64,000 nucleotides of DNA from Trichocoleus sp. Lineage in GTDB: Bacteria > Cyanobacteriota > Cyanobacteriia > Elainellales > Elainellaceae. The stretch covers positions 186,001-250,000 of the forward strand of contig DATNQD010000059.1 of assembly GCA_036702865.1 (NCBI GenBank). The letters are read 5' to 3'. A program made the translations under genes and the position numbers. Positions 46,401 through 61,900 of the stretch are shown here, piece after piece (positions within the stretch are counted from its first letter, which is position 1; the number at the start of each line of letters is the position of its first letter). The notes under the pieces were generated by a model, which was not told the DNA's origin, searched no databases, and worked only from the letters and a program-made list of their open reading frames with translations.

Positions 46401-46652
46401 GCCGCTGGTGGAACTGATGTAGCGGATTCCCTCCACCCCGTTAATTTCTCGCTCTAGCAGGTTGGTGACGCCACTTTCGACCGTTTGCGCATCAGCTCCG
46501 GTATAGTTTGCCGTGACGACGACCTGCTTCGGACTAATGTTGGGGAACTGCGCGATCGGCAGCGTTGGCAGGGCGATCGCCCCTAAAAACACAATAATGA
46601 TCGAGCAAACGGAAGTGAAGATTGGACGCTGAATAAAAAATCTGGCAAACAT
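43467..46652 (-). CDS. RND efflux transporter, HAE1/AcrB family
   Basis: An inner-membrane pump of 1061 residues, the normal length for drug/solvent-type RND permeases. The N terminus MFARFFIQRPIFTSVCSIII is characteristic. Two halves each have a large periplasmic loop and six spans. TM4 carries the proton-relay aspartates in ATGIVVDDAIVVVEAI. It moves amphiphilic compounds out of the cell with the adaptor encoded 108 bp upstream. A TolC-type outer-membrane channel is not in the window. A regulator was not seen. The specific substrates cannot be inferred. Confidence 0.95.
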   Translation of the reverse strand: MFARFFIQRPIFTSVCSIIIVFLGAIALPTLPIAQFPNISPKQVVVTANYTGADAQTVESGVTNLLEREINGVEGIRYISSTSGSDGTSQVTVTFAANEDADIAAVNVQNRVSRAEPLLPESVIQTGVTVNQQSSNFLMAVALYTDNQEYDALFMSNYADLYMLDALKRLEGVGDIQIFGERKFAMRLWLDPNRLASRGLTAQDVASSIREQNIQVGAGQIGQQPAPAEQEYQLNLRAVSRLKEVSDFEELVLKTGSDGSLTRLKDVGRVELGAENYGTFLTYNNLEAVGLGITQRPGSNALNTAQEIREELQRLSEAFPPGLKYAVAFDTTMFVSESFRDVVRTLIESVVLVVLVLYLFLEDWRTTLIPAAAIPVSLLGTFIFTKIFGFSLNTLTLFGLTLATGIVVDDAIVVVEAIASKVQDRHMNPFQAAIEAMRELSGAVIATSLVLMAIFIPVAFFPGTTGAIYRQFALTIAFSIVISTFNALTLSPMLGALLLRERPESQGIVGRFFAAFKRFQDSVRRRYRRSLQFFTRFKYLLLAIFVAAVAFTGWFYTFVPSAFLPEEDQGYFITIVQAPEGVSLNYTKNIMDQASKLVRESPEVASNFAVTGFSFAGVAPNQGIMFTLLHPWEDRKTKEQQVQSVIQQVQMKYFSLPQARIFALNPPSIEGLGNFGGFQMELQDRRGNLPLDAFVGEMQKFLGAANQNPAMQGVFTTYAANTPQLTIEVNRERAKSLNVNIDDIFNTLQSLLGSQYVNDFTLDQRNYRVYLQADEQFRSNPESIQQFYVRSQDNRMIPMSNLVTVTPSSSAQTISHYNLFRSISIQGAAAPGKSSGQALNAMEQTAQQVLSPGLGFEWTGTALEEIESGGQAPLIFGLGIIFVFLVLAAQYESYVDPVIILITVPLAILGALGAQYLRGLSNDVYCQIGLVLLVGLASKNAILVVEYANQLRENGLTIVQAAIEAAQERLRPIVMTSLSGLVGFFPLLVATGAGAASRQSLGTALFGGYIISTFLSLFILPILYIIIKQVTERFIPPRKHDIPKPTLTSSELPEVQTVDGH

Positions 46653-46760
46653 GGTTGAGTGGGGTAGAAGTGCTGCAACAGAGGTGAGACAGAAATCTAG
46701 CGAGAAGCCGAAAAACAGATGTCCGCAGACTACCTATCGTTCATCCCTGATTGTTCCAAA

Positions 46761-48038
46761 TCACTGTGAATTGCTCGACTGCTGGCTTTGTGGTTGCCCG
46801 ATCGTAATCGGCGCACCATCTGAAAGGTTAAGAATCCCCGAAACAATAATTTGATCACCTGGGCTCAAGCCCGACTGCACCTGATAGCTGTTGCCTTGAA
46901 TTGCCCCTAGTTTCACTGGGCGCTGCCGCGCGATCTGCTGGGACTCCCCGGATGGTGCTTTACCAGTTTCCGCAACATAGATGAATGGGTTTCCAGCAAC
47001 GCGAGTTACAGCCGTTGTGGGCACGAGAATTCCTGGCTCACTCTGCCAAATCACCCTGGCTCGCACAAATTGTCCGTCCCGTAGCCTGCCGTTATTAGGG
47101 AAGCTGGCTTTTGCCATAACCGATTGCTCGGTGGTGTTGACCTGCGGTGAGACAAAGCTAATTTGTCCGGTCACTTGTGGCTGGTTCTGTTCATTCACCA
47201 GTTGAACGGGTAGCCCAATTCGCAGATCGGTCGCGCGTTCGATCGGCACAGATACGCTTAGATCCAGCATTTGGTTTTGGATGATGTTGGTGATCGTGTC
47301 ACTGGTGGTGACATAATCCCCAGCTTTGACGCTCACATTACCCACGACACCATCAATCGGCGCAACCACGCGGCTCTGTACTAAGTCAGCTCTGGCAGAA
47401 GTGCGATCGGCTTGGGCACGTGCCAACCGGGCATTTGCTTCATTCACAGCAGCTTGAGAAGCCCGAACATTTTGATTCGCAGCCTCTAATGCAGCTCTGG
47501 CAGTATCTCGCTCATTCCGAACCCGATCGAGCGATTGCTGCGACTGTGCCCCTTCTGTCACCAGACCTTGAGTTCGCTGAAACTCGGTATTTTGCAGTTG
47601 GACATTAGCAGCGGCACGTTCTCGATCGGCTTGGGCAGCTCTGAGCTGGGCTTGGGTCGTATTTCGGGCAGCCAGGGCAGCTTCAACATCAGCAGCGGCT
47701 CCACTCACCTGTGCTTCGCTTTGATCTGCTTTGAGTTGCACGATGGGTGTTCCCGCCCGTACTGTATCTCCTGAGGAAACCAGCACATTGAGAATGCGCC
47801 CATCCACTTCCGGACGCAGCTCCACTTTCCGCTTGGCTTCCAGCGCTCCCACAAACTCAGAAGCAGATTCAACGCGGCTGGAGCTAACAGATTGAACTTG
47901 TACTGGAAAGGCTGGAGGACCCTGCTGCTCTGCTGTTGGAGCACCATTACTGCAGCCTGTGGCGATCGAGGAGACTAACAGCGTAATGCTAATCAGACTA
48001 TTGGATAAGGAAACAGGAAATTTGCTCGTTTTAGCCAT
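46761..48038 (-). CDS. RND efflux periplasmic adaptor (membrane fusion) lipoprotein
   Basis: The 425-residue adaptor starts with a lipoprotein signal (SLISITLLVSSIATGCSNG, lipidated Cys near residue 29). It has the usual order: a barrel-sandwich/lipoyl domain (VELRPEVDGRILNVLVSSGD), a long alpha-helical hairpin rich in Ala, Gln and Arg, and beta-barrel and membrane-proximal domains (VRARVIWQSEPGILVPTTAV). It bridges the RND pump encoded just downstream to an outer-membrane channel. The long helical hairpin suggests TolC-like docking. Confidence 0.93.
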   Translation of the reverse strand: MAKTSKFPVSLSNSLISITLLVSSIATGCSNGAPTAEQQGPPAFPVQVQSVSSSRVESASEFVGALEAKRKVELRPEVDGRILNVLVSSGDTVRAGTPIVQLKADQSEAQVSGAAADVEAALAARNTTQAQLRAAQADRERAAANVQLQNTEFQRTQGLVTEGAQSQQSLDRVRNERDTARAALEAANQNVRASQAAVNEANARLARAQADRTSARADLVQSRVVAPIDGVVGNVSVKAGDYVTTSDTITNIIQNQMLDLSVSVPIERATDLRIGLPVQLVNEQNQPQVTGQISFVSPQVNTTEQSVMAKASFPNNGRLRDGQFVRARVIWQSEPGILVPTTAVTRVAGNPFIYVAETGKAPSGESQQIARQRPVKLGAIQGNSYQVQSGLSPGDQIIVSGILNLSDGAPITIGQPQSQQSSNSQ

Positions 48039-48993
48039 TCGTTAAGTACCGCAGAGAGGGGCGGGAGACAAGACCTGAAGTAAAGATACAAAAGGCTAGA
48101 AAAATTAACAAAAAATTTGACCCGCCAGATTGCTATTACTTTAGGGCACTAGGCTCCCTTTTTTAAAGTGTCAGGATTGACTGTAAGTAAACCGTTCAAT
48201 TTGTACTTCGGTCCTGGAATAAAACAGTTTGCCTAACAGAGGATTCGATCGGTGAAATAAAAGTTTTTTACAGAGTAAATTATTTGCTTGTGTGTTTCTT
48301 AGCCTACATGAGTGTTGAGGCAGTCAGTCTACACCCGAATGGGCGATTCCAAAAAAAATTGCTTGTGAATGAAGGACCGTTTCACCCCAAACAGGATCAA
48401 GCCATTGGTTAATGATACAAAAAGGGAATCCGTTTCTGTTCAGTTGATTCAGTTTATCTTTGATCAACGAACTGCTTGAATGACAAACAAAATCAATTCT
48501 TTAAATTAACAACAATAAATTGGTAGCGTTACACCTTCAAAGAGAGTTATTGCTCGCGATATCACTCAATCTTAATTAGTGCGCTGATGCTGTCAAAAAA
48601 TATTTAACTTTCTCCTGATAGCTGAATAAATCGAAATTTGGGGTCAGCAACTTAAATCAAAAGCCTGGCAAGTGTCTTGACAATTGCTCAAAAAATCTTG
48701 AGATAGCACCAGTTATTCCAGCTTTTTTGGGGCAGTTGAAGAAAAGTAGTCTTGGCTACCGAACTTAAAAGACGCTTTAGAGGATAAGAAATGAGGACAG
48801 ACCATATAAACACCAAGAGTAAAATGATTTGCTCGGAGAAACTTGAGCAGGTTGACCTTTGCAAAACCAATATTTGGGTTGGGAGCAGCTGCAAAGTGCA
48901 AGCTTGAGATTCTCCAATGTGCGTTAAATGTTTTTGTGTCTGATGCTACTCTCTTGCTTCATTCAGCTTCAAGATCTCGGGGGATTCTGTTAA
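48039..48993. other. Long non-coding region between the RND operon and the nitrogen-compound cluster
   Basis: About 950 AT-rich bases separate the divergent adaptor gene and BMP-family gene. No convincing gene was found; a 68-residue hydrophobic frame on the minus strand (48688-48894) has no Shine-Dalgarno and no recognisable domain. A perfect NtcA-type palindrome lies at 48746-48759. A small hairpin (CTCAA/TTGAG, 48687-48702) lies nearby. The region must hold promoters for both flanking operons. Confidence 0.55.
48746..48759 (+). promoter_or_regulatory. Candidate NtcA-binding site upstream of the BMP-transporter operon
   Basis: The sequence GTAGTCTTGGCTAC is a perfect GTA-N8-TAC, the core of the NtcA global nitrogen regulator site. 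It is followed 23 bp later by GATAAG, a weak -10-like element, an arrangement similar to NtcA-activated class II promoters (site near -41.5). It lies 235 bp before the BMP start. A GTA-N8-TAC occurs by chance about once per 4 kb, so this is suggestive only. Confidence 0.4.
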
Positions 48994-50190
48994 GTGAGCA
49001 ACAAAACGTTTCTGGGCTTCTCTCGTCGTCAGGTGATTCGAGGATTACTGGCAACCACTGCATTTGGAGTAACAGCAAAATTAGGGACGGGGTGTAGCCC
49101 TGCAAACCAGGCGAGTTCTGGAGGCAGCGCGGGTGGTACGGGCGGCGACTCACCCATGGCGATCGGGTTTATCTACGTTGGTCCAAAAGACGACTATGGA
49201 TATAACCAGGCACATGCGGAAGGGGCCGCAGCGATGGCAAAGAAATTTCCCAATGTGAAGCTGGTGGAAGAAGCCAATGTGCCTGAAACCACTGCCGTCG
49301 CTGAAACGATGCGAAGCATGATCGATATGGATGGGGTAAAGATTCTCTTCCCCACTTCCTTCGGCTACTTTGATCCGCACATTCTCAAGATGGCAAAAGA
49401 ATATCCAGACGTGCAGTTTTTCCATGCAGGCGGTTTGTATAAAGAGGGCGTTCATCCCAAAAACGTCGCCAGCTATTTTGGCTATATCGATGAGGCACAG
49501 TACCTTGCTGGAGTGGTCGCAGGTCTAACTTCAAAAACGGGCAAGCTCGGCTTTGTGGGCGCTAAACCGATTCCCCAGGTGCTACGCAACATCAATGGTT
49601 TTACGTTGGGTGCTCGCAGCGTGAATCCCAAAGTCACCACGCAGGTTGTTTTTACCGGAAACTGGGCAGAACCCATCAAAGAAGCGGAAGCGGCAAACAG
49701 CATGGCAGATCAGGGAATTGATGTAATTACCTGCCACGTAGACAGCCCGAAAGTGGTCATGGAAACGGCTGAGAAGCGGGGCATCTTCTGCTCTGGCTAT
49801 CACGCCAATCAGGCGGCACTTGCTCCTAAAGGCTACCTGACCGGGGCAGAGTGGGATTGGGTCAATATCTATTCTCAAATTGTTCAAGATACTGAAAGCG
49901 GCAAAACCCTGACGAGCAGTGGCATTCCCCACATCTTGCGCGGCGGCTTCAAGGAAGGATTCTGTAAGCTCTCGGATTACGGTCCCGCAGTAGGTACAGA
50001 AGCGAAGCAAAAAGCAGAGGAAGCCAAAGCCAAACTGATGGACGGCAGCCTCGTGATCTACAAGGGCGGCTTGAAGGACAACAAAGGCAACGTCGTCATT
50101 CCTGCTGGAGCCGGACTGAAGCAAACCGACCCCAAACTCGAAGAAATGAATTATCTGGTGGAAGGCGTCATTGGTTCGATCGGGAGCTAA
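48994..50190 (+). CDS. BMP-family ABC transporter substrate-binding lipoprotein (PnrA/Med-like)
   Basis: A 398-residue basic-membrane-protein family binding protein, a family whose characterised members bind nucleosides in spirochaetes and Bacillus. The N terminus has a twin-arginine signal (FSRRQVIRGLLAT) ending in a lipobox (LGTGC), so it is probably a Tat-exported lipoprotein. The core motifs MAIGFIYVGPKDDYGYNQAHAEG and HAGGLYKEGVHPKNVASYFG are typical. A GTG start follows directly on an in-frame TAA, so no upstream extension is possible; GGGGGA is the likely Shine-Dalgarno. It is the first gene of the operon continuing to 57330. Its exact ligand is unknown. Confidence 0.9.
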   Translation: MSNKTFLGFSRRQVIRGLLATTAFGVTAKLGTGCSPANQASSGGSAGGTGGDSPMAIGFIYVGPKDDYGYNQAHAEGAAAMAKKFPNVKLVEEANVPETTAVAETMRSMIDMDGVKILFPTSFGYFDPHILKMAKEYPDVQFFHAGGLYKEGVHPKNVASYFGYIDEAQYLAGVVAGLTSKTGKLGFVGAKPIPQVLRNINGFTLGARSVNPKVTTQVVFTGNWAEPIKEAEAANSMADQGIDVITCHVDSPKVVMETAEKRGIFCSGYHANQAALAPKGYLTGAEWDWVNIYSQIVQDTESGKTLTSSGIPHILRGGFKEGFCKLSDYGPAVGTEAKQKAEEAKAKLMDGSLVIYKGGLKDNKGNVVIPAGAGLKQTDPKLEEMNYLVEGVIGSIGS

Positions 50191-50324
50191 GGATTCAGGT
50201 CGTAGGGGGTTGGCAATAGGGAAAGGTTTCAGGCTTTAAACGGCTTGCCTATCCTTCTCTCTCGGCCCCATGTTTCTCCCTCCTCACGTCTTTCATTCCT
50301 CATCCCTCATTCCTCATCTTTTCT

Positions 50325-51425
50325 ATGCAAAGCTGGCGGAGAACTCTGGAATCAATTTGCTTACCGTTTGGCGCGATCCTGGTGGGGTTGTTGCTGTTCG
50401 GTATGTTTTGTGCGGCAGTGGGGGCAAACCCGATCGCCGTTTATGGCTCGATTTGGAAAGCGGCGTTTGGTAGCTGGCAGACGTTTCAGAATACGCTAAT
50501 TCGGGCGGCACCTCTGATGCTGTCGTCGCTTTGTACGGCGTTACCGGCGCGCTTGGGGCTGGTGATTATTGGCAACGAAGGAGCCTTGGTTGTTGGGGGA
50601 TTGGCTGCAGTGGCGATCGGGCTAACGCTCTCGACTGTGGTTCCACCGACACTGGTGCAAATTGCCATGGCTGTTGCTGGAATGTTAGCAGGGGGTATCT
50701 GGATTGGGGCAGCAGGGGCTTTGCGCTACTACCGGGCAGTTAATGAAACGATCAGCAGTCTGCTGTTGAACTACATTGCCATCGCGCTGCTGAATCATTT
50801 AGTGGGTGGGCCAATGCGCGACCCCAGCTCGCTCAACAAACCCTCGACTTATCCGCTGGCAGAAATCAATATGCTCGGCTCAATTCCAGGAACGCGGGTT
50901 CACTGGGGGCTGTTGTTTGGCATGATTGCCTGCATCATTGCCTATTTCTTGATGCAGCGGACTACCTTTGGCTTTGCTGCCCGGACTGCCGGAGGCAATA
51001 TCCGCGCTGCCCGCATTGCTGGATTGCCCGTCGGCAAACTGACTGTGATGGTCTGTTTTCTGGCTGGAGCTTGTGCCGGGTTGGCGGGGATGGTTGAGGT
51101 GGCAGCAGTGCAAGGAGCAGCGAACGAATCTCTCAATGTGGGCTATGGCTATGGCGGCATTTTGGTGGCGTTTGCGGCTCGACATAATCCGCTGGCGGCG
51201 GTGCTAATTTCCCTGCTAGTCGGCGGTATTTTGGCGAGTGGCGGCATTTTGCAAAGAGCGCACAATCTCCCCGATGCAACGGTGCTCGTCTTTCAGGGAT
51301 TGGTCTTTTTGATGGTGTTATACAGCGATTCTCTCTATGGCAAGTTCTCCTTCTTCAAAGAGCGACCTGCTGCGCCTGCTCCCCCTGCGCCGATCGCTCC
51401 TTCTTCTCCTTCAACCGCAGTCTAA
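50325..51425 (+). CDS. ABC transporter permease, BMP-associated (YufP-like)
   Basis: A 366-residue inner-membrane permease of the BPD_transp_2 family with about 8-10 spans. GLVIIGNEGALVVGGLAAVAIGL and the ETISSLLLNYIAIALLNHLV region match YufP-like permeases that work with BMP binding proteins. The C-terminal ~20 residues are Pro/Ala-rich. Together with the next permease it forms the membrane pore of the importer. It lies 134 bp after the BMP gene and 18 bp before the second permease. Confidence 0.9.
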   Translation: MQSWRRTLESICLPFGAILVGLLLFGMFCAAVGANPIAVYGSIWKAAFGSWQTFQNTLIRAAPLMLSSLCTALPARLGLVIIGNEGALVVGGLAAVAIGLTLSTVVPPTLVQIAMAVAGMLAGGIWIGAAGALRYYRAVNETISSLLLNYIAIALLNHLVGGPMRDPSSLNKPSTYPLAEINMLGSIPGTRVHWGLLFGMIACIIAYFLMQRTTFGFAARTAGGNIRAARIAGLPVGKLTVMVCFLAGACAGLAGMVEVAAVQGAANESLNVGYGYGGILVAFAARHNPLAAVLISLLVGGILASGGILQRAHNLPDATVLVFQGLVFLMVLYSDSLYGKFSFFKERPAAPAPPAPIAPSSPSTAV

Positions 51426-51443
51426 ATTTTTCGGAGTCGTTTG

Positions 51444-52379
51444 ATGACAACTGAAGTTACAGAAGCCTTAGGTTGGTGGGGTGTGCCGCTGGCGATCGCG
51501 GCTGGAACAATGCGAGGTGGAACGCCATTTCTGTTTGTCAGCCTGGGAGAATGCTTAACCGAAAAGAGCGGCAAGATTAACCTCGGTTTAGAAGGAACGT
51601 TGCTGCTTGGGGCAATGGCGGCTTATGGCACGTCTTATCTGACTGGCTCACCCTGGTTAGGGGTGCTGGTGGCAGGGTTGGCAGGTGCGTTCCTGGGCAT
51701 TATTCATGGCTGGCTATCGCAGCAGCTTCGGGTTAATGATGTGGCAGTTGGTATTGCCATGATTATTTTTGGCAGTGGGTTAGCTTTTTTCTTTGGCAAG
51801 CCCTTTATTCAGCCTTCTGCCCCTCAGCTGCCGACGATCGATCTGGGCGGCTGGAGCAGTAACCCGGCTCTACAATCTGCGCTAGAAATCAGCCCATTAT
51901 TTTTGATTGGTCTACTGATTGCCCCGATTTTGCGCTGGTTCTTTCGATCAACTCGTTGGGGGCTATTTATCCGAGCAGTGGGAGACAGTCCGGAAGCAGC
52001 CAGAGCCATGGGCGTTTCTATTTTTAAGGTGCGGCTGCTCAGCGTCATTTTTGGCAGTTTTTTGGCAGGAATTGGGGGTGCATCCCTGTCTCTCTACTAT
52101 CCTGGCGTTTGGACAGAGCGCATTTCCAGTGGACAGGGGCTGATGGCGGTTGCGCTGGTAATTTTTGCTCGCTGGAATCCCATCAACTGTCTGTGGGCAT
52201 CCCTGTTGTTTGGTGGTGCTCAAGCCCTCGGACCTGCCCTGCAGTCAGTTGGCATTAAAGAAGGCTATTACCTCTTCAATGCTGCCCCTTACATTCTGAC
52301 CCTCCTGATCATGATTTTCACTTGCTCGCCCAAACGAACGCTTTCTGGCGCACCGGGGGCTTTAGGGTCGGAAAGCTGA
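51444..52379 (+). CDS. ABC transporter permease, BMP-associated (YufQ-like)
   Basis: A 311-residue second permease with the family pattern GTPFLFVSLGECLTEKSGKINLGLEGTLL and LRVNDVAVGIAMIIFGSGLA. It pairs with the preceding permease as a heterodimer. The ATG at 51444, one codon after a TTG, was chosen; GGAG lies just upstream. The formamidase gene begins 98 bp downstream rather than the ATPase. Confidence 0.9.
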   Translation: MTTEVTEALGWWGVPLAIAAGTMRGGTPFLFVSLGECLTEKSGKINLGLEGTLLLGAMAAYGTSYLTGSPWLGVLVAGLAGAFLGIIHGWLSQQLRVNDVAVGIAMIIFGSGLAFFFGKPFIQPSAPQLPTIDLGGWSSNPALQSALEISPLFLIGLLIAPILRWFFRSTRWGLFIRAVGDSPEAARAMGVSIFKVRLLSVIFGSFLAGIGGASLSLYYPGVWTERISSGQGLMAVALVIFARWNPINCLWASLLFGGAQALGPALQSVGIKEGYYLFNAAPYILTLLIMIFTCSPKRTLSGAPGALGSES

Positions 52380-52477
52380 GAGTGACAAAAAATGGAGGGA
52401 TGAGGAAGCAGCATTTCTCTCCCTGCCGCCTGCAATCTACCACTTAACCCCTACTACCATTACCTATTACCAAATCT

Positions 52478-53518
52478 ATGAGCGGACTCGGTGGCTTAAA
52501 CAAATCTCCTAATGGCGTTGTGCTGGGACTGGTGCAATTACAGTTGCCCAACGTGGTAACACCAGATGATTTGGCGGCTCAGACACAGCGGATCTGTAAT
52601 CTGGTGGCAAAGGCAAGGCGGAATATGCCAACGATGGATCTGGTGGTGTTTCCAGAATATTCGTTGCATGGGCTGTCAATGGATACCAATCCAGCAATTA
52701 TGTGTCGGCTGGATGGGGCTGAAGTGGAGGCATTTCGGCGCGCCTGCCGCGATAACCGCATTTGGGGCTGCTTCTCGATCATGGAGTACAACTCGAATGG
52801 CAATCCTTACAACAGTGGCATCATTATTGACGATAAAGGAGAACTGAAGCTCTACTATCGCAAGCTGCATCCCTGGGTTCCAGTGGAGCCTTGGGAACCG
52901 GGAGATCTGGGCATTCCAGTTTGTGAAGGTCCAAACGGCAGCACGATCGCCCTGATCATCTGTCACGACGGTATGTTCCCTGAGATGGCGCGAGAATGTG
53001 CTTATAAGGGGGCAGAGATCATGATTCGCACCGCAGGCTACACTGCCCCAATTCGGCATAGCTGGCAGATCACCAACCAGGCAAACGCTTTTTGCAATCT
53101 GATGTATACCGCTTCGGTTTGTATGTGCGGCACAGATGGCACGTTTGACTCGATGGGCGAAGGAATGTTCGTCAACTTTGATGGCGTACCCCTAATTACG
53201 GGCGGCAATCGCCCCGATGAGATTATTACGGCTGAACTACGTCCCGATCTGGTTCGTGAAGCCCGCCAGCATTGGAGCGTAGAAAATAATATTTATCAGT
53301 TCGGCCATCGGGGCTATGTCGCTGTTAAAGGTGGCGCCCAAGATTGTCCTTATACCTACATGAAGGATCTGGTGAATGGTGACTATCGCCTGCCCTGGGA
53401 AGATGAGGTCGTTCATACCGATGGCACTTCTTGCGGTTTCCCTGCACCCGATCGCACTTATCAAGGGGAGGCACTGCCCATTAGTGTGCCACAGCAGGAA
53501 TTCCAGATTTTTGAGTAG
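52478..53518 (+). CDS. amiF: Formamidase (AmiF-type nitrilase-superfamily amidase)
   Basis: AmiF hydrolyses formamide to formate and ammonia. The 346-residue protein strongly resembles the Helicobacter AmiF family: the catalytic triad is Glu60 (VVFPEYS), Lys129 (YYRKLHPW) and Cys162 (IICHDGMFPEMARE), with the same K-C spacing of 33. PWVPVEPWEPGDLGIPVCEGP and YTYMKDLVNGDYRLPWEDEV are AmiF-like, and the latter part distinguishes it from the larger aliphatic amidases. The gene is placed between the importer permeases and the ATPase gene, which implies the imported solute or its breakdown product contains a simple amide. Exact substrate is inferred. Confidence 0.85.
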   Translation: MSGLGGLNKSPNGVVLGLVQLQLPNVVTPDDLAAQTQRICNLVAKARRNMPTMDLVVFPEYSLHGLSMDTNPAIMCRLDGAEVEAFRRACRDNRIWGCFSIMEYNSNGNPYNSGIIIDDKGELKLYYRKLHPWVPVEPWEPGDLGIPVCEGPNGSTIALIICHDGMFPEMARECAYKGAEIMIRTAGYTAPIRHSWQITNQANAFCNLMYTASVCMCGTDGTFDSMGEGMFVNFDGVPLITGGNRPDEIITAELRPDLVREARQHWSVENNIYQFGHRGYVAVKGGAQDCPYTYMKDLVNGDYRLPWEDEVVHTDGTSCGFPAPDRTYQGEALPISVPQQEFQIFE

Positions 53519-53638
53519 AACAATCACACATTTGGGATGAGCATCTTGCCCACACCTAATCCCCAATTCTTATAGGGCAGTCCTCTTGGCTGCCCAGGTT
53601 CTCCAGAAGCGATCGACATAAAGCCTCAACATCCTTTT

Positions 53639-53672
53639 GCCCCCTAAATCCCCTAATTCTGGGGGCTTTGAA
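53639..53672 (+). repeat. REP-like intergenic palindrome of the cyanobacterial CCCCCTAAATCCCC type
   Basis: GCCCCC (53639-53644) and GGGGGC (53661-53666) flank a spacer reading TAAATCCCCTAATTCT, followed by TTTGAAG. I recall near-identical elements being common in many cyanobacterial intergenic regions. It could also act as a terminator or mRNA stabiliser between the formamidase and hydrolase genes. Confidence 0.6.
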
Positions 53673-53703
53673 GAAACCTTGATATCGAATAACGAACACT
53701 GAT

Positions 53704-54390
53704 ATGGGCATTTCGATTCAGTCTGACCCCTATCCCTATCCTTACAACGGCGATCTACGTCCTGCAAATACGGCACTGATCATCATTGATATGCAGACCG
53801 ATTTTTGTGGCAAAGGAGGTTATGTCGATCAGATGGGCTACGACATTTCGCTGACTCGTGCGCCGATCGCCCCCTTGAAAACGCTGCTGGCAACCCTACG
53901 CGAAAAGAAATTTCACATCATCCATACCCGTGAGGGACATCGCCCTGATTTGTCTGACCTGCCGGAAAATAAGCAGTGGCGATCGAGGCAAACTGGTGCG
54001 GGCATTGGCGATCTGGGTCCCTGTGGTCGAATTTTGGTGCGGGGTGAACCTGGTTGGGAAATCATCCCCGAACTTGCTCCGCTAGAAGGAGAACCCATTA
54101 TTGACAAACCCGGCAAAGGCTCTTTTTATGCCACCGATCTCGATCTGCTGCTAAAGCGAAAAAATATTCAAAATCTCATTCTTACTGGCATCACCACCGA
54201 TGTTTGTGTGCATACCACCATGCGCGATGCCAACGATCGCGGCTACGAATGCCTCATCCTTTCCGATTGCACTGCCGCAACTGACTACGGCAATCACCTC
54301 GCTGCCCTGAAAATGGTGACTATGCAAGGCGGCGTTTTTGGAGCCGTCTCAGACTCGCAAGCCGTCCTCGATGCGATCGACTCCCTCTAA
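53704..54390 (+). CDS. Biuret/triuret hydrolase-like cysteine hydrolase (isochorismatase superfamily)
   Basis: A 228-residue cysteine hydrolase. Catalytic residues line up as Asp29 (IIIDMQTDF), Lys135 ([10 protein letters not shown]) and Cys168 ([12 protein letters not shown]). The sequence is close to my recollection of Rhizobium BiuH (biuret hydrolase): [45 protein letters not shown] and [14 protein letters not shown]. BiuH Asp36/Lys142/Cys175 would correspond to these three with a constant offset of seven. BiuH converts biuret to allophanate and ammonia; triuret hydrolase is a near relative. Clade assignment is from memory and needs a tree. The gene sits between formamidase and the ATPase of the importer. 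Confidence 0.75.
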
Positions 54391-54427
54391 CCCATTCCAT
54401 TACCCCTTTCTCTCATAGGAACCCACC

Positions 54428-55978
54428 ATGACCACAACTGCTTCTGCCGTCCAGTCCATCACTGAAACTGAACAGCCGCCCGAACTGGAAGTGGTAAACA
54501 TGACCAAACGATTCGGCAATCTGGTGGCGCTGGATAGCGTTTCGCTGCTGCTGAAACCCGGAACCTTTCATGCGCTGCTTGGGGAGAATGGAGCCGGAAA
54601 GAGTACGCTGGTCAAGTGCATTATGGGGTTTTATCGTGCTGATCATGGGGATGTGCTGATTCAAAAACACGCTCGATCGATCGAAAGCCCCAGAGATGCA
54701 CAGCGCTATGGAATTGGCATGGTGTATCAGCATTTCACTTCAGTTCCGGCAATGACGGTGGCAGAAAATCTCGTTCTGTCGCGGGTGGATAGCCCAAAGC
54801 TGATTAATTGGAAGCAGGAGTACGATCGCCTGCAAGCCTTTATGTCGAATGCGCCGTTTCAAGTGCCGCTGCATGTGCCGATCGCGCAACTCGCTGCCGG
54901 ACAAAAGCAAAAGCTGGAAATCTTGAAGCAGCTTTACCTCAAGAGCAAAATTTTGATTCTGGATGAGCCAACCTCAGTCCTCACGCCCGATGAAGCCGAC
55001 GAAGTGCTGGGCTTAATTCGCCAGGAAGTGACGGCAATGCGACTCAGCGTTTTGCTCATCAGCCACAAGTTCCGCGAAGTTACCACCTTTGCCGATGAAG
55101 TGACAGTGCTGCGAAAAGGCAAGTTTGCCGGACATGGGCTAACCCGCAATCTCGCGGTTTCGGATATGGCAGAGATGATGATGGGCGAACGGCGAGAGCC
55201 GAAAAAGGTGGCAAAAGTGCCGCAGGAGCAAAAAACTCCGGTACTGGAAGTGCAAGATATTCACGCCAACAAAGATAACGGCGTCGAAGCGGTGAAGGGC
55301 GTCAATCTCATTGTGCATTCGGGTGAGATTGTTGGGGTTGCTGGAGTTTCGGGCAACGGGCAAAAGGAACTGGTTGAAGTGCTGGCAGGTCAGCGTCACG
55401 CGACCGCAGGTCAGGTTCTGGTCAACGGCAAACCCTACGAGGCAAACCGATCGGCAATGTTTGAGCATGGGGTGTTTTCGCTCCCTGAAGAGCCCTTACG
55501 GAATGCTTGTGTGCCGCATATGAGCGTTGCAGAAAACATGGCACTCCGGACATTCGATCGCCCCCCGCAAGCCAAGGGGATTTTGCTCATTTTGCAAGCG
55601 ATTCGGCAGGCAGCTCAGGGCTTAATCCAGCAGTTCTCAGTTAAAACGCCTTCGCCCGAAACACCGATTAGCAACTTGTCGGGCGGCAATGTGCAACGGG
55701 CAGTTTTAGCACGCGAACTCTCGTCCGATCGCATCAATCTGTTAATCGCAGCAAACCCTTGCTTTGGGTTAGATTTCAACGCGGTTGAGTTTATTCATGG
55801 ACAAATTGTCGAAGCCCGCAACCGAGGTGTAGCCGTCTTGCTGGTTAGCGAAGATCTCGATGAACTGCTGACATTGTCCGATCGGATCCTGGTCATCAGC
55901 GAAGGCAAATTTGCTTACGAAAGCCCGATCGAGTCAGCCGATTTTGCGGCAATTAGCCACAGCATGGCAGGACATTGA
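54428..55978 (+). CDS. ABC transporter ATP-binding protein with two NBDs (YufO/RbsA-like)
   Basis: A 516-residue protein with two nucleotide-binding domains, as usual for BMP and CUT2 importers. NBD1 (residues ~18-255) has Walker A GENGAGKST, a non-standard signature LAAGQKQKLEIL and Walker B ILILDEPTS. NBD2 (~265-516) has a degenerate Walker A (GVSGNGQKE), a canonical signature (LSGGNVQRAVLARELS) and a Walker B ending in ANP in place of DEP, so it lacks the catalytic Glu. This asymmetry is normal in the family. The gene is the importer's ATPase despite standing two hydrolase genes after the permeases. Confidence 0.92.
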   Translation: MTTTASAVQSITETEQPPELEVVNMTKRFGNLVALDSVSLLLKPGTFHALLGENGAGKSTLVKCIMGFYRADHGDVLIQKHARSIESPRDAQRYGIGMVYQHFTSVPAMTVAENLVLSRVDSPKLINWKQEYDRLQAFMSNAPFQVPLHVPIAQLAAGQKQKLEILKQLYLKSKILILDEPTSVLTPDEADEVLGLIRQEVTAMRLSVLLISHKFREVTTFADEVTVLRKGKFAGHGLTRNLAVSDMAEMMMGERREPKKVAKVPQEQKTPVLEVQDIHANKDNGVEAVKGVNLIVHSGEIVGVAGVSGNGQKELVEVLAGQRHATAGQVLVNGKPYEANRSAMFEHGVFSLPEEPLRNACVPHMSVAENMALRTFDRPPQAKGILLILQAIRQAAQGLIQQFSVKTPSPETPISNLSGGNVQRAVLARELSSDRINLLIAANPCFGLDFNAVEFIHGQIVEARNRGVAVLLVSEDLDELLTLSDRILVISEGKFAYESPIESADFAAISHSMAGH

Positions 55979-55980
55979 GA

Positions 55981-56619
55981 ATGCCGATCGATCCTGCTCC
56001 CTTACTGCTGTTTTGTCTGGCAGCAATGACTCTAGCGGCAATTCCTGGACCTGCAACGCTCTACATTGTGGCAAGAGGCGTTCATCAGGGACGGATGGCT
56101 GGCATTGTTTCAACCTGGGGCATTGCGTCCGGCAATCTGGTTCATATTAGTGCTGCTGCTTTGGGAGTCTCGACGCTGCTCCTCTCGTCTGCACTCGCTT
56201 TTAGTTTGGTGAAATATCTGGGGGCAGCCTATCTAATCTCTTTGGGCATCCGGCAACTGATTCATTCTTTGGCTGCGCCAACTGCTCCCCAACTCAAGCC
56301 ACAAAGCCTCAAACAAATTTTTGCTCAGGGGTTTGTTGTCAATGCGCTGAACCCTAAAGCAGCTCTATTTTTTGTGGCATTCCTGCCTCAGTTTATTGAT
56401 CCATCAAAAGGGTCTGTGCTTGTTCAGGTGCTTTTTCTGGGAGCCGTTTTTACGATCGTTGCCAATGTGGTTGATAGCCTCTATGCCTTGATTTCCGGCA
56501 CGATCGGCGGTTGGCTCAATGGGCGGAGCCGCTTTCGCAAACTACAGAAATATTTTGCAGGCGGCACTTATATTGGCTTAGGCATGGCGACTGCATTCAC
56601 AGGTTCTCATAGCAAGTAA
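55981..56619 (+). CDS. LysE/RhtB-family transporter
   Basis: A 212-residue membrane protein with six predicted spans, similar to amino-acid exporters of the LysE/RhtB type. The N-terminal hallmark is MTLAAIPGPATLYIVARGVHQGR, and a second conserved part is FVVNALNPKAALFFVAFLPQF. The ATG lies 2 bp after the ATPase stop codon, indicating tight coupling. It could export an amino-acid-like by-product of the degradation pathway; this is inference. Confidence 0.88.
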   Translation: MPIDPAPLLLFCLAAMTLAAIPGPATLYIVARGVHQGRMAGIVSTWGIASGNLVHISAAALGVSTLLLSSALAFSLVKYLGAAYLISLGIRQLIHSLAAPTAPQLKPQSLKQIFAQGFVVNALNPKAALFFVAFLPQFIDPSKGSVLVQVLFLGAVFTIVANVVDSLYALISGTIGGWLNGRSRFRKLQKYFAGGTYIGLGMATAFTGSHSK

Positions 56620-56640
56620 ACATTATCTTGAATAGCAACT

Positions 56641-57330
56641 ATGGCATTGATTGATGCGATTCCTTACGGATACGAACTGCCTGCGGATCTCAAGCGATCG
56701 GCACTGGTGATTATTGACATGCAGCGCGACTTTCTAGAACCGGGTGGATTTGGCGATGCATTGGGCAATGATGTCTCTCGGCTGCAAGCGATCGTCCCCA
56801 CGCTGCAACAGTTGCTTAAAACCTTTCGCCGCTATCAACTCCCCGTTGTTCACACGTTGGAATGCCATCAGTCCGACTTATCCGACTGTCCACCTGCCAA
56901 GCGCGATCGGGGCAAAGGCTCGCTCAAAATTGGCGAGATGGGACCCATGGGGCGGATTCTTGTGATGGGTGAGCCGGGGAATGGCATTATTCCTGAGCTT
57001 CAGCCACTTCCTGGGGAAATTGTCATCAACAAGCCCGGAAAAGGGGCATTCTACGCCACACCTTTGCAAGACATTTTGCAAGAAAAGGGCATTACCCATT
57101 TGTTCTTTACAGGCGTGACCACTGAAGTCTGTGTGCAAACAACCATGCGCGAAGCTAACGATCGCGGCTATGAATGTCTCATGGTAGAAGACTGCACTGA
57201 AAGCTATTTCCCTGAATTCAAGCAAGCAACGCTAGAGATGGTACGGGCTCAGGGCGGCATTGTTGGCTGGACAGCGACGGCAGCGGCAGTGATGGCAAGC
57301 TTGGAGGCAGCGCAGCGAGTGGGAGTGTAA
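56641..57330 (+). CDS. Second isochorismatase-superfamily cysteine hydrolase
   Basis: A 229-residue cysteine hydrolase paralogous to the one at 53704. Catalytic residues are Asp26 (VIIDMQRDF), Lys131 ([10 protein letters not shown]) and Cys164 ([12 protein letters not shown]). It shares the KPGKG and [14 protein letters not shown] blocks with its paralogue but differs in the substrate region ([15 protein letters not shown] against [14 protein letters not shown]), so a different carbamoyl or ureido substrate is likely. It ends the operon, 21 bp after the LysE-type gene. A 17-bp tandem duplication spans its stop codon. Confidence 0.8.
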
Positions 57331-57347
57331 AGCGAGTGGGAGTGTAA
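57314..57347 (+). repeat. 17-bp perfect tandem duplication spanning a stop codon
   Basis: AGCGAGTGGGAGTGTAA occurs twice in direct succession (57314-57330 and 57331-57347). The first copy contains the stop codon of the cysteine hydrolase; the second lies after it. It looks like a recent replication-slippage event with no effect on the protein. Confidence 0.85.
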
Positions 57348-57465
57348 AAAATGATGGGCGACAGGTAATTAATTATCGGTTCAAAGCTGAAAGTTTCCTG
57401 CCGCCTGAGTCCTTCAAACCTGGGGAACTGTAATTTTGGGTTGGCTTTCCAATCTGGGACGAAGA

Positions 57466-58761
57466 CTAGATCGAATGCTGTATCGGTTGGGGCAGCAACT
57501 TGATAAAGGCGGCATACAGAATCACAGCCGCGATCACGCCATTGATGGGAGCGATGCCAAAGCTGGCTTGAGAAGAAACATAAGCGATCGTCGAAGCAAT
57601 GACATAGGCAATTACGCCAGCCCAGTTAAAAGCAGGTAAAGGGGTGTTGAGATCGGGAAATTGACCGCGATGGCGTAACCAAAAGTCTGCCATGATGATG
57701 CCACCAACAGGAGGAATCACGGTTCCCAGGAAAATTAGATAAGGAATCAGCAAATTATACAGACCGACCAGTGCCAGCGCGAGTGCTAGAGTTGCACCCC
57801 CTAATACAAAAGCAGTTCGTTTGCGAGTGCGGAAGAAGTTTGCGCCAGCAACCGAGAAAGCATAGATCGTGTTGTCTTGGGTTGTCCAAACATTGAGAAT
57901 GAGCAAAACTAAGCCACCGAGCAAAATTCCTTGCTTTGCCATTGCCTGAATCAGGTCTTGTGTTCCATAGACCAGAGTACAGAAAGCCCCAGCAAAAACC
58001 AGAAGCCCGTTGATGAACAGAAAAGCAGCCAGCGTACTCCAAACGGCATTTTTGCCAGAATCAGCAAAGCGGCTCCAGTTGGTTGCCTGTGTTCCGCCCG
58101 AGATAAATGTGCCAATCACTAGGGCTAAAGCGGCTCCTATGCTAATCGGTTCTTTCGGGGCAATTGCCTGAAGCTGTGCCAAGCTGCCTGCATCTCGAAA
58201 ACCGATCGCTAGACTGATCACAATCAAAATCAGCATCGCTGGGACTGCCAACCGACTGAGCCAATCCATTGCCGTATAACCAATGTAAGCCGTGACGCAA
58301 AAGGCATAAGTAAAGAAAACCACTGCCACCCACTTCAGCGACTCAGGAAAGCCAATTAATTGACTCAGCGCATCTGCAACAAAGGCGTTGGTGACGGCAT
58401 ACCAGCCGATTTGTGTAAATCCTAAAATAAAATCAACCCAGCGAGAGCCAACGTTGCCAAAGCTAAAGCGAGCCATGAGTACAGTGCTCAAGCCGCTTTT
58501 GTAGGCAATATATCCCATTGCTGCACAGTAAATGCCCAACAGCGTGTTTCCAATCAGCACAATCCACAGCATCTCGGAGAAGCGAAAGCCAGTGCCGATC
58601 GTTCCGCCTGCAAACAGCGTGGTTGAAGTGAGCGCAAAGCCCATCAGCAAAGGAGCCAGCGACCAAATCGGTTTCCGGTCATCCAAGGGGACAGCAGAGA
58701 GAGGATAATCTTCTCCTGCCTGCGATCGATCTGCAACATCTGGTTTCAAACTAATGCTCAT
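57466..58761 (-). CDS. NCS1-family cytosine/purine-type permease
   Basis: A 431-residue symporter of the nucleobase:cation NCS1 family (CodB-like) with about 12 membrane spans. Family segments include GFALTSTTLFAGGTIGTGFRF, GFTQIGWYAVTNAFVADAL and GTFISGGTQATNWSRFADSGKNAV, and LILNVWTTQDNTIYAF. Substrates in the family are cytosine, purines, allantoin and related ring compounds. The ATG at 58761 has AAGGAG about 9 bases upstream and is preferred over a start 20 codons earlier. It is convergent with the importer operon and divergent from the hybrid kinase. Confidence 0.88.
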   Translation of the reverse strand: MSISLKPDVADRSQAGEDYPLSAVPLDDRKPIWSLAPLLMGFALTSTTLFAGGTIGTGFRFSEMLWIVLIGNTLLGIYCAAMGYIAYKSGLSTVLMARFSFGNVGSRWVDFILGFTQIGWYAVTNAFVADALSQLIGFPESLKWVAVVFFTYAFCVTAYIGYTAMDWLSRLAVPAMLILIVISLAIGFRDAGSLAQLQAIAPKEPISIGAALALVIGTFISGGTQATNWSRFADSGKNAVWSTLAAFLFINGLLVFAGAFCTLVYGTQDLIQAMAKQGILLGGLVLLILNVWTTQDNTIYAFSVAGANFFRTRKRTAFVLGGATLALALALVGLYNLLIPYLIFLGTVIPPVGGIIMADFWLRHRGQFPDLNTPLPAFNWAGVIAYVIASTIAYVSSQASFGIAPINGVIAAVILYAAFIKLLPQPIQHSI

Positions 58762-58952
58762 GCAGCGATACTCCTTAACGTAGTTTTGCAAGAAGACGTA
58801 AAAACGTATTCTCCGCTGCACTGGAAAACGAAATCGTATTCCACATCACCCGCCGCTCGCTTGGCTTCTCCTGCTTAATTTATGGGAACGCTAGGATTTG
58901 GTCGTCAGGATGAGGCTTCTCTGCTCCAATCAATTGAATCCTGGGTGAACGA

Positions 58953-61900
58953 ATGATCTCGCGCAAGCTATCGCTCCGCCACTTGCTGGTTGTTCCTTTT
59001 GTGCTGCAGTTGGCCGGGACGATCGGGTTGGTTGGCTATCTCTCTTTTCGCAACGGACATCAGGCAGTCAATGAACTGGCAACGCAGCTCCGCAGCGAGA
59101 TTTCAGCGCGGGTAAAGCAGCAGTTGCAAAACTATATGGAAACGCCTTTTCTGATCAACCGGATGAATGCAACTTCTCTGGCAAATCAGGATATTGACCT
59201 GAAGAAACCGGAAGAGGGCAATCGCTTTTGGCAACAGGCGACTTCAATTCCCGCAACTAACCTGATTTACTGTGGTTCAGAAACGGATGGCTCTTTTCTA
59301 GGAGTGGGGCAGGCGAATGACCTTCAAGGACGACTGTTGCAGGTGCAATATAGCAACCCTTCAACGAGTTACCTCTTTCACTACAAAACCCTGAATCAGT
59401 CTGGCGAAATTGTCGCAACGCGTAAAATCGGCAACCGCCCCTATAATCCCCGCCATCGTCCCTGGTATATTGACGCCAAACAAAAAGGGCGTGAAACCTG
59501 GAGCGAGATCTATCTAGATTTTGATGATTTTGTACCAGTGATTACTGCCAGCTTGCCCGTTTATGCTCCCCATTCCAGACAGTTGATTGGTGTTTGTGCT
59601 ACCGATTTTTTGTTGGCTGTTGAGTTGGATTCTTTTCTGAACCAGCTGGAAATTGGTCAGTCAGGGCAGGTCTTCATTATGGAGCGATCGGGCGTATTGG
59701 TGTCTAGCTCCACGGCAGATGAAGAAGCGCTCACGCTCGGTCAGGGCGACAGGATACAGCGACTCCTGGCAACGGAGAGCAAAAATCCTCTGGTGCGTGC
59801 GACTGCCAGCCAACTAAAAACGCAATTCCATGACTTCCAGCAAATTCAGTCTGAGCAGCAATTGAGTTTTGATCTGCGCGGCAAGCAGCTCGTTCAAGTC
59901 ACTCCGTTTCGAGACGATCGCGGTTTAGATTGGCTGATCGTGGTCGTTGTACCAGAATCCGACTTCATGAGGCACATTGACGCCAATACGAAAATGACCG
60001 TGTGGCTGTGGGTTGGTTCGCTGCTGATTGCAGTTGAGGTCAGCATCTTTCTGGCAGGTTGGGTAACAGATCCCTTGTTAAAGCTGAATGCTGCTGCAAA
60101 ACAAGTTGCCCAAGGTGACTGGGAGCAGCCCTTTAAAGATGTTCAACCCGAGGTCATGGGGATTCAGCGCCATGATGAAGTTGGAGAACTTGCGCAATCG
60201 CTTCAGGAAATGACGAGGCAATTGCAGGCAACTTTTGCCCAGAAAGAAGAACTGCATCAGGAATTAGCTGCCAGCAATGATCAACTGAGCCAAATCCTGC
60301 AAGCCCTGCCCATTGGCATCGTTGTTCTGCATCCTTCCGGAGATGGCTACTTGAACCAGATCGGGCAGCAGCTATTGGACATGGAGTCGAATTCGGAACT
60401 GTCCTTCACTCAAGCCTCTAGCACCTATCAGCTTTATCGAGCAGGGACAGATGAGCTTTACCCCCCTGATGAGTTGCCAATGTTCCAGGCACTTCAGGGA
60501 CGAACGATGCGAGTGGATGATTTGGAAATCCGTCGAGGCGGAAAAGCGATTGCGCTAGAAGCCCGATCGATTCCGGTTTTTGATGCTCAGGGAAGGGTTG
60601 TTTATGCACTCTCCACATTTCAAGACATCACCGAGCGAAAATGGACGGCGCGGCTACTGGAGGCATATAACCAGGTTCTAGAACGACAGGTGCAAGAGCG
60701 AACGATCGCCCTGGAGCAGGAAATTGCAGAACGAAAGCAAATTGAATTGGACTTGAAGCAACGCAAGCAGCAGTTTCGGACTCTGGTTGATCATGCCCCT
60801 GACATCATCATGCGGCTCAACTCCGAAGGTCGCTATCTCTACATCAATCCCACGGTTGAAGGGCAGACAGGTATCCCAGCATCCGAATTTATTGGTAAAA
60901 CGCTCGATCAATTCGGGATGTCCGCTGCTCTAGTGGAACAATGGCGATGCGTGATTCAGCAGGTTTTCGAATCTGGAAAGCCTCAAATGTTGGAGTATGA
61001 GGTTCCAACTGCCACAGGGCTAAAGTTTTATGCCTCTAGAGTTGTGCCTGAATTTGCCAGTGATGGAAGCGTGCAATCTGTCTTAGCCATTGCCCGCGAT
61101 ATTAGTGAACTGAAGCAAACAGAAGCAACGCTGCGCCAGAGTGAAGCGCAGAATCAGGCAATCTTATCTGCCATCCCTGATCTCATGTATTCCGTTAGCG
61201 CCGATGGTATTTTTCTAGGCTATTCCCGCACAACCCAGTTTGCTGACTTAGTTGCCTCAGAAATTAATCCGATCGGGCATCCGCTCATGGATCTCCTGCC
61301 GACTCATATTGCTCAACGGCATCTCTCCTACATTCAGCAAGCTTTGACAACAGGGAAAGCCCAGACCTATGAACAAGAAATTTACGTGGACAATAAGCTG
61401 CAATATGAGGAGGTGCGGGTTACACCGAGTGGAGAAGCGAAAGCGCTAATGATTATTCGGGATATCAGCGATCGAAAACGGATGGAGGTTGAACTTCAAA
61501 ATCAGCAGATTTTTTTACGAAGCGTCATTGATGTCTGCCCGTACCCTATTTTTGTCAAAGACAAGACCGGATGCTTTGTCACCCTCAATCAAGCTGCCGC
61601 CGCGATCTATGGCAGAACGGTTGAAGAGTTGGTCGGTAAGCGCGATATTGACTTTAACGCCAACGGACATCAGGTGAGGCAGTTCCTCCAGAGCAATGAA
61701 GATGTTATGGCGGACAGAAAAACTAAAATCTTTCCTGACCAATCGATCGTCAATGCTCAGGGAGAAACGCGCTGGTATCAAACGGTCATTGCTCCCTTCA
61801 TTCAAGATGGCGAAGAGATTAAAGGTGTAATTGGAGCATCCAGCGATATCACTGAGCGCAAACAGGTTGAAGTTGCTCTAAAACAAGCAAAAGAAGCGGC

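Follow-up and report, generated by a model that had tools for sequence, protein, structure and literature searches.

Organization of the locus

The window analysed here, a stretch of 64,000 nucleotides from Trichocoleus sp. to which all positions refer (its genome is designated G000), harbours eight adjacent genes for an ATP-binding cassette (ABC) importer, a formamidase-like amidase (AmiF-like), a LysE-type exporter and two cysteine hydrolases (Table 1), which very probably form an operon for scavenging triuret and biuret, comprising import and breakdown to ammonia. An open reading frame (ORF) check recovered all eight ORFs on the plus strand at the coordinates given by an initial annotation of this DNA, and the latter's description of a one-strand operon with short gaps stands: in gene order, the gaps amount to 134, 15, 98, 185 and 37 bases, a 4-base overlap and 21 bases, i.e., 185 bases at most. 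The same annotation had located the hydrolases inside the importer operon between permease and ATPase genes; this applies to the formamidase-like and BiuH genes, whereas the second hydrolase gene lies downstream of those for the ATPase and the LysE-type exporter. A Bmp domain, two permeases and an ATPase with two ABC domains assign the importer to the BMP/PnrA type (Pfam). The six terminator-like matches in 48038-57600 are all intragenic and fewer than in shuffled sequences.

Table 1. Positions of the operon genes and adjacent features in the window
Feature	Position	Strand	Support
NtcA-like palindrome GTAN8TAC (weak), upstream of operon	48746-48759	+	motif match
BMP-family substrate-binding lipoprotein, AtzT-like, twin-arginine-type leader SRRQVIRGLL	48994-50190	+	Pfam PF02608 Bmp, 157 bits
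ABC permease 1	50325-51425	+	PF02653 (BPD_transp_2)
ABC permease 2	51441-52379	+	PF02653 (BPD_transp_2)
Formamidase-like amidase, AmiF-like, BiuH-associated subfamily	52478-53518	+	NCBIfam PRK13287, 580 bits (cut-off 406)
Predicted biuret hydrolase BiuH	53704-54390	+	NCBIfam NF050097, 417 bits (cut-off 370)
Importer ATPase, two ABC domains	54428-55978	+	PF00005, two stretches
LysE-type exporter, accessory	55975-56619	+	PF01810, 105 bits
Predicted triuret hydrolase TrtA	56641-57330	+	63 % identity to TrtA 6xix; six of six TrtA-type residues; Asp-Lys-Cys triad
Cytosine-permease-family (NCS1) gene, neighbour	57466-58821	-	PRK11017, 461 bits (cut-off 326)

Cysteine hydrolases

The first hydrolase is 76 % identical to the crystallised BiuH 6azo, the second 63 % to the crystallised TrtA 6xix, and the two share 48 % identity with each other. 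On the BiuH model NF050097 the second hydrolase scores 258 and thus remains below the cut-off (370), its best match being TrtA. Six positions separating TrtA from BiuH have been named (PMC7948467). The BiuH protein of the window possesses all six BiuH-type letters (Y, Y, S, D, T, V) together with the catalytic Asp, Lys and Cys, and its TrtA protein all six TrtA-type letters (F35, N41, A134, E160, Y187, I205) together with the Asp-Lys-Cys triad; the TrtA gene is clustered with biuH in the window as well as in relatives. Since both hydrolases carry the full published residue sets and the triad, biuret and triuret can be predicted as their substrates with good confidence.

A ChrR-like cupin (PF12973, ~116 residues) is encoded beside TrtA in several cyanobacterial and rhizobial relatives (L042:8506-8856, L045:1520-1870, L165:9662-10015), the gene being located in the ATPase-TrtA interval in several relatives and after TrtA in Rhizobium; it was not found in the window by tblastn (best E 0.1). 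In Paenibacillus abyssi (L151:4135-12580), an AmiF-like gene and the genes of a divergent BMP importer are surrounded by several members of the BiuH family.

Conservation of the gene cluster

TrtA with at least 70 % identity is present in 15 of 386 cyanobacterial genomes, two more matching at 39-41 % only. BiuH was identified in 14 of these 15 TrtA genomes (in two pieces in G215), G177 showing none, and in nine of the 15, the window's genome included, a single cluster holds the genes for the BMP protein, the two permeases, BiuH, ATPase and TrtA. The order BMP-permease 1-permease 2-(AmiF-like)-BiuH-ATPase-TrtA recurs in cyanobacteria as well as in alpha- and betaproteobacteria; seen again in other phyla, it does not reflect chance.

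Among 300 sampled Burkholderiales genomes, 31 contain BiuH (some contigs ending inside the stretch considered), and in 28 of these a BMP gene lies within ~8 kb. The condition that the initial annotation had named as refuting its reading, hydrolases not travelling with the importer, thus does not hold. TrtA is present at 22 of the 31 BiuH loci, AmiF-like at 15 (all 15 with BMP) and the allophanate hydrolase AtzF at 13. The centre of this sample, G387, was picked for having AmiF-like, and the AmiF-like count is 14 of 30 without it.

Binding protein and importer

The best sequence match of the binding protein in the PDB is AtzT (6pi5, E 7e-65), and 6pi5 is also the best fold match of its predicted model (Foldseek E 1e-28), which was used for the fold only, its mean predicted local distance difference test score (pLDDT) of 73.8 being middling. 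According to a view previously expressed for this locus, the BMP systems characterised to date import nucleosides. This is only partly correct, since guanine and 2-hydroxyatrazine are bound by AtzT, which is the nearest relative with a solved structure (PMC6834077); guanine is sandwiched by Tyr45 and Trp194 and contacted by the side chains of Ser97, Glu165, Asn218 and Asn220. The window protein resembles AtzT of the AtzSTUVW system (PMC6834077) in fold, twin-arginine-type leader, aromatic sandwich and pocket Ser-Phe; in its pocket signature YSFQQNWHD, the serine and both aromatic residues are unchanged, but Glu165, Asn218 and Asn220 are exchanged for Gln, His and Asp, respectively.

A comparison of 54 BMP proteins from cyanobacterial TrtA loci and AmiF-anchored loci (window's protein included) revealed Gln (43), Thr (7), Pro (2), Ser (1) and Glu (1) at position 165. 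The lone Glu belongs to a separate divergent BMP cluster of L156 and is missing from the other 53 of 53 anchored-locus BMPs, three of which (L123, L130, L135) are accompanied by AmiF-like with BiuH/TrtA absent on the fetched stretch. The BMP of L125, situated at a contig end, deviates at further pocket positions. In 14 proteobacteria with the system, all 14 best BMP copies lack Glu, whereas 11 of 16 fetched paralogues (24 further matches left out) possess it, the remaining five having Leu (3, one of them incomplete), Gln (1) or Val (1). Since the guanine-contacting Glu is replaced in the BMPs of the system and kept in most paralogues, the pocket changes fit an importer that would no longer read guanine.

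Fate of allophanate

AtzF over the family cut-off was found in 8 of 386 cyanobacteria, one of which is the TrtA genome G060; the other 14 of the 15 TrtA genomes do not contain it, and none was found in G000, which in this respect lacks a complete triuret pathway. The C-terminal domain of allophanate hydrolase is a decarboxylase; a paper on the AtzF C-terminal domain as decarboxylase was not found in the literature searched. A stand-alone protein, AH_C, matches this domain (PF21986) with 140 bits (cut-off 27). Of the 386 cyanobacteria, 13 have close AH_C (E 1e-30 or better), and 12 of these belong to the 15 genomes with TrtA (Fisher p 3e-19, uncorrected), but the query was taken from a TrtA genome and distant relatives (29-37 %) are found in most of the 15, so that the association is confined to close AH_C. 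Among the exceptions, G215 has AH_C in two pieces, G060 has AtzF instead, and G177 is devoid of both AH_C and BiuH. Of the thirteen TrtA genomes with AH_C (G215 counted), eight carry its gene within the cluster or close to it; the AH_C gene of the window's genome (G000:C42:30182-30538; L248:8156-8548) has no amidase partner alongside. The urease alpha subunit exceeds its cut-off in all 15 cyanobacterial TrtA genomes. Because AtzF is mostly absent, close AH_C kept and urease present in all 15, the simplest reading suggested for cyanobacteria is conversion of allophanate via urea to ammonia.

An AtzE-type amidase adjoins AH_C in L121; it was rejected as tied partner of AH_C, being present in 9 of 15 TrtA genomes versus 8 of 21 others. 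Elsewhere in the window, a gene of the nickel insertion protein family (PF01969) is located at 19216-20700; urease requires nickel.

Formamidase-like subfamily

The AmiF-like protein of the window shares 46-48 % identity with 2dyu and 5g3o, the AmiF proteins of Helicobacter pylori and Bacillus cereus; between these two, identity amounts to 77 %. The catalytic Glu, Lys and Cys of AmiF are retained in 81 of 81 aligned AmiF-like sequences, while 35 columns, in which the latter are at least 97 % alike, set them apart from both true AmiF.

The AmiF-anchored set comprises the best 80 of at least 586 relatives, affiliating with Cyanobacteriota (40), Pseudomonadota (32), Bacillota (4), Myxococcota (3) and Actinomycetota (1). 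BiuH (49) or TrtA alone (1) is encoded in the fetched flank of 50 of these 80, with the full gene order in 25. Of the 30 remaining, 27 genomes were searched and a BiuH relative was detected elsewhere in 24, including all 17 cyanobacteria among them (79-82 % identical). In Nodosilinea nodulosa PCC 7104, the genes for BiuH and a second hydrolase are located away from AmiF-like. No BiuH relative was found in three of the 27, i.e., a Fredinandcohnia, a Thiomicrorhabdus and a Mesorhizobium, and matches are fragmentary or weak in an Ectothiorhodospiraceae and a deltaproteobacterial bin. Of the 77 genomes of this set that were examined, 74 thus combine AmiF-like with BiuH or TrtA. Across the 386 cyanobacteria, close AmiF-like (at least 85 %) is restricted to six genomes, all within the 15 with TrtA (Fisher p 1e-9, kinship ignored); five distant relatives (34-46 %) belong to one TrtA genome and four others. 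In a quick tree, the BiuH/TrtA-linked sequences are clustered without forming one clade (12 changes versus 24.6 in shuffles). Judged from these sequence comparisons, AmiF-like is a separate subfamily tied to the pathway yet dispensable.

A chemical link between AmiF-like and the hydrolases may be provided by formylurea, on which TrtA is slightly active (0.29 % of the triuret rate; PMC7948467): removal of its terminal amide by TrtA would leave an unstable carbamate that could decay to formamide. None of the matches listed in a literature search connected N-formylurea with the oxidation of nucleobases.

Regulation and flanking genes

GTAN8TAC is the core of the NtcA binding motif. It was found upstream of 9 of 23 cyanobacterial operons as compared to 10 of 124 control upstreams (p 4e-4). 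Of the five control motifs, however, GATN8ATC is nearly as frequent, with 7 of 23. For the palindrome of the window, no -10 box was detected at the distance scanned, and no RNA family reached its gathering score in 47500-59000. Taken together, NtcA control of the operon is weakly suggested by the motif.

A relative of the LysE-type exporter was found in just 2 of the 80 AmiF-anchored loci. The adjoining NCS1 permease gene, situated on the opposite strand, lacks conservation beside the system: an NCS1 relative of at least 30 % identity was not found in these 80 loci, with only weak ones (24-27 %) in L136, L153 and L162. Just upstream and transcribed away from the operon, a large efflux-pump-looking ORF and a gene for a HlyD-type membrane fusion protein occupy 43467-48038 on the minus strand.

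Proposed pathway and alternative readings

The initial annotation had envisaged one importer-plus-hydrolase system for ureide nitrogen, a notion which gains support here, with the substrates narrowed to triuret and biuret. In the proposed pathway, the binding protein and the ABC importer would take up linear ureides. TrtA would convert triuret to carboxybiuret with release of one ammonia, followed by loss of CO2 from carboxybiuret to yield biuret, and BiuH would convert biuret to allophanate and ammonia, both reactions having been assayed for homologues. Allophanate would then be converted to urea, probably via decarboxylation by the stand-alone AH_C encoded elsewhere, or spontaneously, and urease would finish by releasing ammonia from urea. 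The most tentative step is that of AmiF-like, which most likely handles a formyl-capped side product or co-substrate, e.g., formamide arising from action of a ureide hydrolase on N-formylurea.

A wider role, which we regard as conceivable though rather doubtful, would be the utilization of a whole family of linear ureides ending in carbamoyl or formyl groups (e.g., from oxidised nucleobases or urate). The AmiF-like subfamily would then serve the formyl-ended members (N-formylurea, N-formylbiuret or formamide left from them) and AH_C would act as allophanate/carboxybiuret decarboxylase feeding urease, such that ammonia is obtained without allophanate hydrolase.

Several observations weigh against the triuret/biuret scavenging system as outlined. 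In 6 of the 15 cyanobacterial TrtA genomes, no complete cluster was detected at a single site, the parts being scattered, at contig ends or not found nearby. AmiF-like was not found in 9 of these 15 genomes, nor at 16 of the 31 Burkholderiales BiuH loci, and hence appears optional. The AH_C and urease genes of the window's own genome reside on other contigs, with no pathway gene beside AH_C, and one cyanobacterium (G233) has AH_C without TrtA. Moreover, the nitrogen-control signal upstream of the operon is weak.

An importer for purines or nucleosides, with which the hydrolases are only loosely associated, might be suspected from solved BMP relatives, which are titled nucleoside-bound or bind guanine, and from the adjoining cytosine-permease-family gene. 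We consider this improbable in view of the BMP gene near biuH in 28 of 31 Burkholderiales BiuH genomes and the replacement of the guanine-contacting Glu in 53 of 53 anchored-locus BMPs (the separate L156 cluster set aside). The kinship of the binding protein with AtzT could likewise point to import of cyanuric acid or s-triazines, BiuH then acting downstream of the ring-opening AtzD; in the equivalent operon on a Rhizobium leguminosarum plasmid AtzD is indeed encoded, and the BiuH of R. leguminosarum has been treated as part of cyanuric acid catabolism (PMC5806882). However, no AtzD is found among the ORFs of the operon (a genome-wide AtzD search was not made), TrtA is present, and biuret metabolism appears to be mostly independent of cyanuric acid (PMC7948467), making a cyanuric acid or s-triazine system quite improbable.

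A different assignment concerns AmiF-like, which might replace allophanate hydrolase by acting on allophanate itself, since AmiF-like and AtzF over the cut-off never co-occur in the 386 cyanobacteria (0 of 6) and the subfamily deviates from true AmiF at the 35 columns. This substitute was rejected as highly improbable, given that AtzF over the cut-off accompanies AmiF-like in 29 of the latter's 32 Pseudomonadota genomes, and on one plasmid. Furthermore, 8 of the 9 cyanobacterial TrtA genomes devoid of AmiF-like are also devoid of AtzF over the cut-off and 7 of those 8 keep AH_C; AmiF-like therefore does not fill the AtzF gap there.

Comparison with described systems

The triuret/biuret scavenging system proposed here corresponds to the TrtA-(TrtB)-BiuH-AtzF pathway of Herbaspirillum (PMC7948467) in that both hydrolases display the published discriminating residues, and differs from it by the lack of AtzF over the cut-off in the window's genome, the presence of stand-alone AH_C and urease, and the extra AmiF-like gene. 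In ammonia oxidisers, bmpA-nupABC has been reported together with biuH; the bacterial clusters also contain putative trtA and collocated atzF, and some archaeal contigs codB (PMC12625717, 2025). The importer type and biuH are thus shared with the window, as is, for the bacteria, putative trtA. The collocated atzF of the bacterial clusters is a difference, and neither formamidase nor cyanobacteria are mentioned in the accessible main text of that report. On the plasmid of R. leguminosarum ATCC 14479, the genes for BMP, two permeases, formamidase, BiuH, ATPase and TrtA are arranged in identical order, with the differences that AtzD is encoded between BiuH and ATPase, a cupin after TrtA, and AtzF ~240 kb off on the same plasmid. 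In this Rhizobium plasmid row (L165, NZ_CP030763.1), the genes for formamidase, BiuH, cyanuric acid hydrolase and TrtA share a strand, so that the routes for cyanuric acid and triuret are united.

The gene combination had been put forward in the initial annotation as one not known to be described in cyanobacteria. Its novelty is more limited, as the core of BMP, TrtA and BiuH is already published for nitrifying bacteria and archaea (PMC12625717), and the same order with formamidase exists on the R. leguminosarum plasmid; new are the cyanobacterial branch, the AmiF-like subfamily, and AH_C as the probable stand-in for allophanate hydrolase. The accessible parts of a review on urea use in 308 cyanobacteria (PMC6737895) do not mention formamidase, and those of PMC4051656 offer nothing relevant on gene context. 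An earlier report of biuret hydrolase together with formamidase, or of triuret or biuret use by cyanobacteria, was not found among the matches listed in a search outside of which most subscription journals lie; allophanate, biuret and cyanobacteria are mentioned jointly in PMC11135946 and PMC13188910. An earlier paper on biuret hydrolases reportedly appeared in Environmental Microbiology.

Triuret and biuret are known as impurities of urea fertiliser and as products of urate oxidation (PMC7948467), and the present findings would make both compounds a probable source of nitrogen for a number of cyanobacteria. The distribution of the AmiF-like subfamily and of stand-alone AH_C singles out both and predicts a role in ureide breakdown; an assay of one or the other did not turn up in the literature searched. 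The findings also bear on the question raised for R. leguminosarum 3841, where no atzF is located near atzD and biuH and the fate of allophanate was stated to need study (PMC5806882), at variance with a report of AtzF in R. leguminosarum operons (PMC7948467): on the ATCC 14479 plasmid atzF is present far off from biuH, and in cyanobacteria AH_C and urease may take over this function.

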